Shown piece by piece: positions 56,814-61,342 of a DNA stretch of 64,000 bases. The notes beneath the pieces were generated by a model. That model saw nothing but the letters and a program-made list of their open reading frames with translations, did not search any database and was not told where the DNA came from. Position 1 is the first letter of the stretch. The number at the start of each line of letters is the position of its first letter. The stretch is taken from positions 1-64,000 of the forward strand of contig JAATGV010000023.1 of the NCBI GenBank assembly GCA_015654475.1, in the 5' to 3' direction. This stretch comes from Actinomycetales bacterium. Its GTDB lineage: Bacteria; Actinomycetota; Actinomycetes; Actinomycetales; Microbacteriaceae. Both the position numbers and the translations under genes were made by a program.

Positions 56814-57065
56814 GTGGCAGACCAAACCGAACCGAAGGGGCAGAAGCAGCAGACCCGCAAGAGTCTGCTGCTTCGACTCGACCCAAGCATCCACGATGCT
56901 CTCGCCAAGTGGGCAGCCGACGATCTGCGAAGCCTCAACGCCCATATCGACTACCTGCTTCGACGATCCCTCAACGAAGCAGGCCGCCTCCCCGCCCGAG
57001 TTCCGAACCCGCGCAAGCCAGGCCGGCCACGTGCGAACGCCCCACAAGACGACGAGACCACCTAA
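56814..57065 (+). CDS. Arc-type ribbon-helix-helix DNA-binding protein
   Basis: The 83 residues have a ribbon strand KSLLLRLDPSIHDALAKWAA followed by helices DLRSLNAHIDYLLRRSLNEA, the RHH (Arc/CopG) pattern, then a basic Pro-rich tail PRKPGRPRANAP that may bind DNA non-specifically. It starts at GTG 56814, 8 bp after the SPFH stop, so it is the second gene of a two-gene unit. Probable repressor of its own operon via the operator at 55805-55825; this is inference. Confidence 0.85.
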   Translation: MADQTEPKGQKQQTRKSLLLRLDPSIHDALAKWAADDLRSLNAHIDYLLRRSLNEAGRLPARVPNPRKPGRPRANAPQDDETT

Positions 57066-58059: not shown

Positions 58060-58920
58060 GTGGATCCAACCAACAACACCATCCGAATCGCGACCGTAAA
58101 CGTCAATGGGGTGCGAGCGGCGTACCGCAAGGGCATGGCCTCGTGGATCGACTCCGTGGACGCAGACATCGTCGCCGTGCAGGAGGTGCGGGCTTCGCGC
58201 AGCGATCTCCTCCTGCTCGTCGGTGACGGCTGGCATGTGCTCAACGACGAGGCCACGGCGAAGGGCCGGGCCGGAGTCGCATTGCTGTCACGGGCCCCCG
58301 CATCCGCGTCCCGTACAGTGATCGGCGCAGACGACTTCGACAGCGCCGGTCGTTGGCTCGAAGCGGACTACGAGTTCGGCGGGGTGCCGCTCACCGTGGT
58401 GAGCGCCTACTTCCACTCGGGCGAGGCAGACACTCCGAAACAGATCGAGAAATACAAGATGCTCGATGCCGCCACGGTGCGGCTTGCCGAGTTGAACTCG
58501 GACGGTGCCCGCGTCGTCGTGGCCGGCGACCTCAATGTCGGGCACACGAAGCTCGACATCAAGAACTGGCGAGGAAACGTCAAGCACGCCGGGTTCCTGC
58601 CACAAGAGCGGGCCTACTTTGATCGTTTCTTCGGTGCAGCCGGGGCCGAGATCGAGGGCGCAGACGGATCGATCGGCCCCGGACTCGGGTGGGTGGACGT
58701 CGGCCGCCAATTCGCCGGCGAAGTCGACGGCCCATATACCTGGTGGTCGTGGCGTGGCCAGGCGTTCGACAACGGCACGGGCTGGCGCATCGACTATCAG
58801 ATGGCCACTCCGACTCTTGCTGCGGAGGTCACCGACTACCGGATCGACCGTGCTGCGAGCTATGCAGAACGCTGGACGGATCATGCGCCCGTCATCGTCG
58901 ACTACCACCTCGGGGGTTAG
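58060..58920 (+). CDS. xthA: Exodeoxyribonuclease III
   Basis: The 286-residue endonuclease/exonuclease/phosphatase-fold AP endonuclease shows RIATVNVNGVRAAYRKG, VAVQEVRAS, VVVAGDLNVGHTKLDI, WWSWRGQAFDNGTGWRIDYQM and the C-terminal WTDHAPVIVDY with the catalytic His. It cuts DNA at abasic sites in base-excision repair. GTG 58060 is taken as start (GAGG about 10 nt upstream), 46 bp after yihY. Confidence 0.93.
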   Translation: MDPTNNTIRIATVNVNGVRAAYRKGMASWIDSVDADIVAVQEVRASRSDLLLLVGDGWHVLNDEATAKGRAGVALLSRAPASASRTVIGADDFDSAGRWLEADYEFGGVPLTVVSAYFHSGEADTPKQIEKYKMLDAATVRLAELNSDGARVVVAGDLNVGHTKLDIKNWRGNVKHAGFLPQERAYFDRFFGAAGAEIEGADGSIGPGLGWVDVGRQFAGEVDGPYTWWSWRGQAFDNGTGWRIDYQMATPTLAAEVTDYRIDRAASYAERWTDHAPVIVDYHLGG

Positions 58921-58955: not shown

Positions 58956-58968
58956 TGCGGGTGCAACT

Positions 58969-59041
58969 GTCACTGTGACAGGAAAAACTCGGCCGCATAA
59001 CGACTATGGCGCTGCCCGCAAGTTTTTCCTGTCACAGTGAC
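58969..59041. repeat. 73-bp palindromic element, copy A
   Basis: A 22-bp stem begins GTCACTGTGACAGG and ends with its complement CCTGTCACAGTGAC, with G-rich/C-rich interior between. The interior holds ACGACTATGG at 59000-59009. Copy B at 60113-60185 is the same length, with the same stem except one compensated base pair, and lies in the opposite orientation judged by the interior. An outer exact 12-bp inverted repeat (58931-58942 / 59059-59070) surrounds this copy. Confidence 0.85.
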
Positions 59042-59135
59042 GACGATCCTCCACCGCAGCACCCTGCGGCACCTTTTTCCACATTCCGACGATTGCGTCC
59101 CCGAGCGGGCTCAGCACCGATTACCTTCGACGAGC

Positions 59136-60044
59136 ATGACCCTCTCGAACCTCCCGGGATATTTCTCTCACTCCCTCGTGACCCGTGCAGACTTCCTCGC
59201 GCTTGGGATCACCGCACACAACTTCGGGCGCCTCGTGGAACGCGGGGATGTGGTCCGTTTTCGACGCGGGAGTTATTGCCTGTCACATCTCGACTCACAT
59301 TTCTTAGTGGCAGCACGCATCGGCGGAAAGGTCACGGGCCCCACTCTTTTCGGGCGCCTCGGCGCGTGGCAATTGCCCGACCGAGCGACCATTCACATCT
59401 CGGTGCCCCGGCACACGCACCTGACAAAAGTGCCGCGCGGTGTGCGCCTGCACTGGTCAGGCACACCTGGACGGTCCCTCGCCGAGGAGAAGGACACCGC
59501 TATCGCGCATGTTGCCGCGCTTCGCTCAACTCGCGACAGTGTTGCGGTACTCGACTCGATCATGCACAAGGGGATCATGTCGAGAAGCCAGGTTCTCGCC
59601 GCGCTTCATGCCACTCGACGTGGACGATACCTTGCGCCGATGCTCGACGCGACCGCGGAATCGGGCGTGGAGTCGATGTTTCGCTTGTGGTTGTTGAACC
59701 ATCAGATTCGGTTCCGGTCTCAGGTGCGGATCGGAAACTATCGAGTCGACTTTCTCGTCGGTAAGACATTGGTTGTGGAGATTGTGGGCGAAGAGTTTCA
59801 CGCGCCAAGGGACATGTTCGAAGCAGACGCTTCGCGCGAAGCATACCTGCAAAGTCTTGGATATCGGGTACTGCGGCTGTCGGCCCGCCAAGTCTTGTCT
59901 CGCATGGATGAAGTAGAGGCGGCGGTTCTTGGCCTCATTCGTTCGAAACGCCACAACCGCGGCCCTGCGCCAGCGCCCACGGCGCCGACAAGGCTGACCT
60001 CGAGCCGCGCTCGAGGAGCAGCTTTGCCTTTTTGGTCACCCTAA
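59136..60044 (+). CDS. AbiEi-like winged-helix + DUF559 (Vsr-fold nuclease-like) protein
   Basis: The 302 residues have an N-terminal winged-helix region (about 10-110; FLALGITAHNFGRLVERGDVVRFRRGSYCL) like AbiEi-type antitoxin or regulator domains. The C-terminal DUF559 domain (about 175-285) belongs to the very-short-patch-repair/restriction-endonuclease fold, with Glu179, Asp205 in YRVDFLVG, Glu215 in VVEIVGEEFHAPRDMFEADASR and His222. Function is unknown; nucleic-acid cleavage is inferred from the fold. ATG 59136 is chosen; the frame extends upstream over the palindromic element. It stands alone between palindromic copies A and B, suggesting horizontal gain. Confidence 0.75.
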   Translation: MTLSNLPGYFSHSLVTRADFLALGITAHNFGRLVERGDVVRFRRGSYCLSHLDSHFLVAARIGGKVTGPTLFGRLGAWQLPDRATIHISVPRHTHLTKVPRGVRLHWSGTPGRSLAEEKDTAIAHVAALRSTRDSVAVLDSIMHKGIMSRSQVLAALHATRRGRYLAPMLDATAESGVESMFRLWLLNHQIRFRSQVRIGNYRVDFLVGKTLVVEIVGEEFHAPRDMFEADASREAYLQSLGYRVLRLSARQVLSRMDEVEAAVLGLIRSKRHNRGPAPAPTAPTRLTSSRARGAALPFWSP

Positions 60045-60112
60045 CAGCAATCGCCACCTCGCCTTCAGGATCATGCGCGGTAGTCGCAGCCGCCGATCTC
60101 GCCCGAGCGACC

Positions 60113-60185
60113 GTCACTGAGACAGGAAAAACTCGGGTGCGGCCCCATAGTCGTCATGTAGTCGAGTTTTTCCTGTCTCAGTGAC
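60113..60185. repeat. 73-bp palindromic element, copy B
   Basis: The stem is GTCACTGAGACAGG...CCTGTCTCAGTGAC, 73 bp in all. Compared with copy A, a T-A pair is replaced by A-T in both arms, keeping the stem paired. The interior carries CCATAGTCGT (60145-60154), the complement of ACGACTATGG in copy A, so the two copies are inverted relative to each other. It lies in the 287-bp gap before trpS, which otherwise holds nothing recognised. Confidence 0.85.
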
Positions 60186-60322
60186 GAAGCACCAATCCAT
60201 CGCGTGGATTGAACGGGATCTGCGCTCAGCACGCCCGAAAAGCTGACACCTGACTAGCGTCGCGTTGTCCACACAAGAGCCCGCAACTGGGCTCTGCAAC
60301 GCGCCCCACGCGCCACGATTAA

Positions 60323-61342
<1,020 letters not shown>

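Follow-up and report, generated by a model that had tools for sequence, protein, structure and literature searches.

A nuclease gene between paired palindromes, recurring with different sequences in related bacteria, suggests previously undescribed mobile or selfish DNA

Introduction

Dispersed bacterial palindromes have a well-described partner gene, the HUH-type RAYT, and most of these palindromes (REPs) lie away from RAYT genes. A different catalytic fold, that of Vsr, is found in homing nucleases such as the mobile-intron enzyme I-Bth0305I (PDB 3r3p), which we take to carry the EDxHD motif. The parts of the REP literature drawn on here describe the REPtron as a gene between two copies of a palindrome that is scattered elsewhere in the genome, with cognate enzyme-repeat pairs and clustered palindromes (PMC2817692; PMC8266576). 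GTAG- and CGTC-tagged palindromic repeats are also dispersed and mostly intergenic, 20 to 40 bp long and marked by a fixed tetranucleotide; the portion of that survey used here reports CGTC families without a dedicated transposase and mentions no DUF559 gene (PMC3733652). Inverted repeats of another kind occur in the AbiE type IV toxin-antitoxin system. According to the sections consulted, AbiEi binds two of them in its own promoter, each 11 bp with a 27-bp gap, or up to 23 bp long and then only 3 bp apart (PMC3985639; PMC7319586), the site being TGTTGCTTTTA-N27-TAAAAGCAACA (PMC3985639).

Here we analyze a 64-kb window, the first 64 kb of contig C20 in a source genome of 2.41 Mb (42 contigs, 98% complete), where an AbiEi-DUF559 gene stands between two palindromes (Table 1). 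The same palindrome-gene-palindrome arrangement recurs with different sequences in related bacteria, which suggests previously undescribed mobile or selfish DNA. In searches of open-licence PubMed Central papers, the titles and abstract openings listed gave no link between DUF559 or AbiEi-DUF559 genes and palindromes. If a restriction-fold nuclease does play the part of the RAYT elsewhere, then unrelated enzymes have made use of small palindromic repeats on at least two occasions. The DUF559 family, which has no assigned function, would then gain a concrete partner, and many naturally diverged protein-site pairs would be at hand for decoding how AbiEi-like domains choose their sites.

Table 1. 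Features of the 64-kb window discussed in the text.
Feature	Position	Strand	Description
Solo F2 palindrome	1699-1780	none	82 bp; family that brackets the C35 DUF559 gene
Exo_endo_phos gene	58060-58920		PF03372, exonuclease III-like; upstream neighbor
Palindrome A	58969-59041	none	F1 family, 73 bp; half-sites 58969-58989 and 59021-59041; interior 31 bp; model match 58966-59044
AbiEi-DUF559 gene	59136-60044	+	302 aa; Pfam, PADLOC, PDB profile match, predicted structure; start codon our choice
AbiEi antitoxin-like fold, residues 1-173	59136-59654	+	6y8q_A, Z 7.8, 162 aligned, rmsd 4.8; predicted half-site reader
DUF559 domain, residues 190-266	59703-59933	+	Pfam; conserved acidic residues
Palindrome B	60113-60185	none	F1 family, 73 bp; half-sites 60113-60133 and 60165-60185; interior in the opposite orientation to that of A; model match 60110-60188
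trpS-like tRNA synthetase gene	60332-61342		PF00579; downstream neighbor

Predicted protein of the flanked gene

Pfam places both AbiEi_4 (residues 11-49; 29.3 bits, cut-off 25) and DUF559 above their cut-offs in the window protein, and the AbiEi models of PADLOC match it as well. The predicted structure has a mean pLDDT of 90.9. Its residues 176-274 resemble the catalytic domain of I-Bth0305I (Z 14.1, 96 aligned, rmsd 2.4) and residues 174-273 resemble Vsr (Z 10.8, 100 aligned, rmsd 2.6), which bears out the Vsr/DUF559 endonuclease fold that a preliminary description of the locus had read at the C-terminus. At the other end, Foldseek pairs the protein with AbiEi (6y8q_A, E 3.2e-6). At a Z of 7.8 two folds may have no more than a general arrangement in common, and we retain the AbiEi assignment because the sequence models agree with it. 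As modeled, the protein is an AbiEi-like part joined to a Vsr/I-Bth0305I-type nuclease fold. Among viral proteins, Foldseek returned 33 matches at E 0.001. Many of these bear DUF559, Vsr-type or restriction-enzyme names, and the comparison settled nothing.

An alignment of 45 of the 81 available proteins, chosen by us and mostly palindrome-flanked, shows three invariant residues: E179, just upstream of the DUF559 span, D205 and D231. E215 is kept in 41 of the 45 and H222 in 32, while residue 217 is aspartate in 38 and valine in the window protein. AbiEi_4 reaches its cut-off in only one of nine other module or paralogue proteins scanned, so the N-terminal part varies among module proteins.

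The catalytic fold, the conserved acidic positions and, in part, H222 are thus held in common with the EDxHD/Vsr-fold homing nucleases. Here, however, the gene is freestanding between palindromes rather than in an intron, and an AbiEi-like part is added. With AbiE systems (AbiEi, 6y8q; Rv2827c, 1zel) the locus shares the N-terminal DNA-binding fold, and its upstream palindrome, a candidate operator, likewise consists of inverted half-sites a fixed distance apart. It differs in the fused nuclease domain, in a second palindrome downstream with many more elsewhere, and in its neighbors: no AbiEii nucleotidyltransferase toxin gene lies beside the window gene, which has the PF03372 and PF00579 genes on its two sides. 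In its folds the system resembles both AbiEi antitoxins and homing nucleases, and it lacks the AbiEii gene of the AbiE system.

In third-position G+C the window gene ranks at percentile 11 among 228 called genes, and the other four DUF559 genes of the source genome lie at percentiles 7 to 22 (three genes) and 42 (one). From base composition, the low value in the window gene is weakly consistent with foreign origin.

Palindromes A and B and their families

Palindromes A and B had been described as equal in length with a shared stem, and both are indeed 73 bp, with perfect inverted arms of 21 bp in A (58969-58989/59021-59041) and 24 bp in B (60112-60135/60163-60186). With up to three mismatches allowed, the arm motif occurs four times in the window, always within A or B (maximum in 100 shuffles, 0). 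Two finer points of the preliminary description also stand. One stem pair is changed in both arms, T-A in A (GTCACTGTGAC) and A-T in B (GTCACTGAGAC), and the interiors of A and B agree once one copy is reversed. The start codon, as set by rule, follows the end of palindrome A at a distance of 94 bp. Between positions 57000 and 62000, no Rfam family reached its gathering score. Two Rfam microRNA models touched palindrome B, both far below their gathering scores, and we rejected that identity.

By arm pattern and covariance model, the family of A and B (F1) has 12 copies on nine contigs of the source genome, eleven of 73 bp and one of 72 bp. Their shared form is TCACTnnnACAGGAAAAA, in which a variable triplet mostly still matches between both arms of one copy. 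A weak match of the F1 model led to a sister family, F2, with the form GTTGnnnCTAACAGAGGAAATGC and a length of about 82 bp; its 33 arm matches are interpreted as 16 two-armed elements and one lone arm. F1 elements end in GTCAC or TTCAC and F2 elements in GTTG. Interiors are alike between copies (0.46 in F1 and 0.57 in F2, vs 0.31 when shuffled in either family) beyond chance, so that copies within each family share descent. Terminal repeats with a target-site duplication would point to an IS or MITE with a DDE transposase; the elements have inverted arms, and those F1 and F2 flanks that were inspected by eye revealed no such duplication.

The arms covary copy by copy in both families (for the element of A and B, 4 of 1,000 shuffles reach the observed pairing over the outer 13 positions), in a test where the 72-bp F1 copy stood one base out of register and one F2 copy of another length was left out. 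Dispersed copies with covarying stems, as foreseen for this element, are therefore present. The interior shows no covariation as a stem (554 of 1,000 shuffles), so it does not continue the stem, and on this ground we rejected a hairpin through the whole element. Thus the proposal that structure is kept while sequence changes holds for the outer arms but not for the interior. Among four sets from another family treated below, with arm AAATGCAGGA, the arms hardly vary, and pairing is copy-specific in one set only (g91; 43 of 1,000 shuffles); these sets cover 38 of 412 places, one 74-bp, one 76-bp and one repeated copy having been set aside. Template-switch correction of palindromes may also yield covariation in the arm triplets, so the triplets are no proof of a folded state.

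Could the palindromes simply be bidirectional terminators or RNA elements that bracket a lone gene by chance? Many F1 copies have AAAAACTCGG-like arms that end in TTTTT on both strands, and fold strongly, and none of 26 F1 and F2 copies lies inside a called gene. We nonetheless consider this very improbable: the interior lacks stem covariation, F2 arms have ATTTCC at their ends and no T-run, no Rfam family reached its gathering score around the locus, and paired palindromes are missing at shifted positions in the same regions (see below). By our own gene caller, the 26 intergenic copies comprise 8 between convergent, 4 between divergent and 13 between tandem genes, with 1 undetermined, against a background of 26 convergent, 40 divergent and 91 tandem gaps. 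This count covers all but two of the 16 F2 copies, and the labels of the two copies at the C35 module are unreliable because the caller missed the C35 DUF559 gene.

F1 was not found outside the source genome. At E 1e-5, six of 397 other genomes of the family, a set with no further genome of the same genus, had weak model matches, all to other palindromes. There was none in viral contigs or phages, and one 31-bp partial match (E 0.7) in plasmids. A 77-bp place in a Prevotellaceae record, from a pattern search of genome contigs that may have left out records of the source genome, was read as chance.

DUF559 genes flanked by palindromes in related genomes

The source genome has five DUF559 genes, and three of them lie between two palindromes, each pair from its own family: F1 at the window gene, F2 at the C35 gene and a third family (AAACCCCGGCAC) at the C40 gene. 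At the C19 gene, a complete copy of a fourth family stands upstream and half a copy downstream, with 33 nt in common. By the rules used, the fifth gene (C20:90092-90328, about 90 kb; locus L079) has no palindrome on either side. It is 48% identical to the window protein and is possibly a decayed or domesticated member. Ten of the 12 F1 copies lie away from all five genes. Copies occurring as often beside unrelated genes as beside DUF559 genes had been named in advance as a refutation. In view of those ten copies it is an unsuitable refutation, since most REPs likewise lie away from RAYTs.

We took one genome from each of 60 genera of the family; 32 of these genomes contain DUF559 genes, 80 in all. 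Start codons were set by rule, and at G022 the contig stops within the locus. Under a strict flank rule (arms of 14 nt with at most one mismatch, gap 10-69, length 45-100), 29 of the 80 loci have palindromes on both sides, 28 on one side and 23 on neither. The 29 two-sided modules come from 14 of the 32 genomes. At ten shifted positions, two-sided cases numbered 0 (eight times), 2 and 1 of 78-79, and the enrichment beside DUF559 genes that the preliminary description had named as support is thereby borne out. One-sided cases numbered 6-14 of 78-79 at shifted positions, so part of the 28 are background. Hairpins per 500-bp bin reach 0.54 just before the gene and 0.48 just after it, and 0-0.10 in other bins, and a word of at least 15 nt is common to both flanks at 38 of 80 loci vs 4 of 156 controls. 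Outside the family, none of 28 loci (each about 3 kb or less, with the same windows) is two-sided and five are one-sided (G462, G468, G443, G416 and G536), no more than background.

In 26 of the 29 modules the two arms agree at 11-12 of 12 nt, a level reached in 6 of 812 comparisons between modules. Nearly every two-sided nuclease gene therefore carries its own palindrome. This bears on the idea that a homing-type DUF559 gene is only a mobile cassette, settling between palindromes already spread by another enzyme. It is true that the nuclease domain is closest to I-Bth0305I, a homing nuclease of mobile introns. But if one gene type had settled in all these unrelated repeat families, an equal number of other mobilizers would be required, and the source genome has no match to the Y1 transposase domain (PF01797) at E 0.1, where 8 of 14 control genomes matched. 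We regard a mere cassette as unlikely. Protein and arm divergence are correlated across 56 modules (Mantel r 0.125, p 0.0005), a real but weak relation that does not fit simple co-evolution of protein and arm. In module pairs with a relative protein score of at least 0.4, the arm is shared in 1 of 8; similar proteins often have unrelated arms.

The palindromes might instead be operators, with the AbiEi-DUF559 protein a host transcription factor and nothing mobile. AbiEi proteins do autoregulate through inverted repeats of similar design, in the parts of the two AbiEi papers used here (PMC3985639; PMC7319586), and the upstream palindrome ends at a median of 94 bp before the chosen start codon. 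The downstream palindrome, however, begins at a median of 15 bp past the stop codon, 8 of the 26 F1 and F2 copies have convergent genes on their two sides, a setting in which one would not look for a promoter, and the interiors of copies are related by descent. A regulon thus seems a poor candidate, and the distribution of copies among related species, considered next, argues against it further.

Distribution and orthologous sites of one palindrome family

The arm AAATGCAGGA was first seen at modules of two genomes (G063 and G044). As an inverted pair it occurs at 412 places in 33 of 398 genomes, across 16 genera, with 1-43 places per positive genome; a reversed control gave none. In nine sister species of one genus (g74), copy number ranges from 0 to 43, which speaks against a host regulon. 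Doublets recur, with starts 120-210 bp apart. Two of the 60 genomes, G056 and G073, have 11 and 14 places with no DUF559 match at E 1e-5, a point in favor of the cassette alternative. We predicted before looking that palindrome pairs about 1.1 kb apart would enclose a DUF559 protein, and both pairs inspected (G090 and G121) do, as identified by Pfam in G090 and by 47% identity to the G090 protein in G121. A third close pair, 362 bp apart in G044, is not a module. Among the places listed, 104 gave element lengths, with 62-92 bp allowed: 95 are 74-77 bp, 8 are 86-88 bp and one is 68 bp, and the 86-88-bp class comes from three genomes only.

Judging from their translations, the genes flanking the G090 and G121 modules are presumably dapD and gltA. 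Across 13 genomes of the G090 genus, this site holds a module in five and is empty in five. Three occupied sites have AAATGCAGGA arms (G090, G356 and G291) and two have AAATGAAGGA arms (G554 and G405). The empty sites (G153, G555, G382, G251 and G326) have 60-156 bp between flanking matches. G205 has 354 bp with neither module nor arms, in G556 the site is split over contigs, and G557 gave no match. Module proteins are 75-91% identical within the AAATGCAGGA group, 60% within the AAATGAAGGA group and 50.7-53.5% between them. The empty orthologous loci that the preliminary description had looked to were thus found, with the module absent from five or six genomes of one genus. Whole modules that come and go at one site also speak against a regulon.

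Solo palindromes differ between species as well. Stretches from eight g74 sister genomes contain 31 AAATGCAGGA elements, and a comparison was possible at three sites. One palindrome is common to the species compared; each of the other two occurs in one species but not in its counterpart, which at one of these two sites has some 770 bp of other sequence. Junctions of modules and palindromes are too diverged for placement at the base level, and the empty orthologous sites could be losses rather than gains.

Comparison with REPtrons and proposed mechanism

Like a REPtron, the window gene and other modules are flanked by two copies of a dispersed palindrome, and the system shares a probable cognate pairing of enzyme and repeat and the clustering of palindromes with the REPtrons described in the parts of those sources used here (PMC2817692; PMC8266576). 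The enzyme is of another type, as the preliminary description had held: an AbiEi and Vsr-like nuclease protein where the REPtron has a Y1/HUH enzyme. The repeats differ too. F1 is 73 bp, F2 about 82 bp and AAATGCAGGA elements 68-88 bp (mostly 75-77), in contrast to REPs of 20-40 bp with a GTAG head. For one arm counted widely we find 1-43 places per positive genome, whereas REPs usually exceed 100. The GTAG- and CGTC-tagged repeats, as far as the portion cited describes them, resemble our palindromes in dispersal and intergenic position but are shorter and carry their fixed tag (PMC3733652).

The best reading, in our view, is a REPtron-like unit with an unrelated enzyme. The palindromes would be DNA sites cognate to the product of the gene that they enclose, the whole palindrome-gene-palindrome module the autonomous form of a small mobile or selfish element, and solo palindromes copies of it that lack the gene, corresponding to REPs as the module does to RAYT genes; we give this a probability of roughly 60%. 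It is built on the two-sided association, arms that match within and differ between modules, dispersal, the relatedness of interiors, and presence or absence at orthologous sites, all of which were observed; from these we infer binding, cutting and spreading.

Arms that covary around interiors that do not, together with a length step of about 11 bp, lead us to propose that the AbiEi-like part binds the palindromes and that the nuclease part cuts. Each palindrome would be two inverted half-sites on one face of duplex DNA at fixed spacing, bound by the AbiEi-like winged-helix part. The step is about one helical turn, which a hairpin would not need, and this favors two duplex half-sites over one long hairpin. 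The architecture resembles that of the AbiEi promoter site in the part of that work used here (PMC3985639). The Vsr/EDxHD-type nuclease part may then cut at or near the palindromes, with new copies made by cleavage-coupled repair or recombination, and the upstream palindrome is probably also an AbiEi-type operator of the nuclease gene. It is tempting to go further and propose that such units form a class of mobile or selfish DNA of their own. In it, a Vsr/EDxHD-type nuclease fused to an AbiEi-like reader would spread short palindromes of two half-sites, as many diverged pairs in one family and several per genome: a functional counterpart of the REPtron with unrelated chemistry, recognizing duplex rather than folded single-stranded DNA. 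We hold this broader claim tentatively, at slightly worse than even odds.

Further palindrome arrangements

Other palindrome arrangements were seen along the way. A repeat cluster with a GAGCA-AACCCGACA inverted motif, several arms in a row, occurs at two loci with no DUF559 gene adjoining (L079, 1615-1709; L089, 4344-4514). Two neighboring F4-like elements (GCAACTTCGCGG; L088, 4377-4462 and 4556-4637) lie within about 450 bp of an F1 copy. In another genome of the same family (G093, L230), two matching palindromes with GGAACACATTC arms stand about 1.04 kb apart, offset from the DUF559 match. Finally, the module palindromes at three loci (L132, L166 and L195) have further repeats of the arm motif inside them, which suggests insertion of palindrome into palindrome or stepwise growth.
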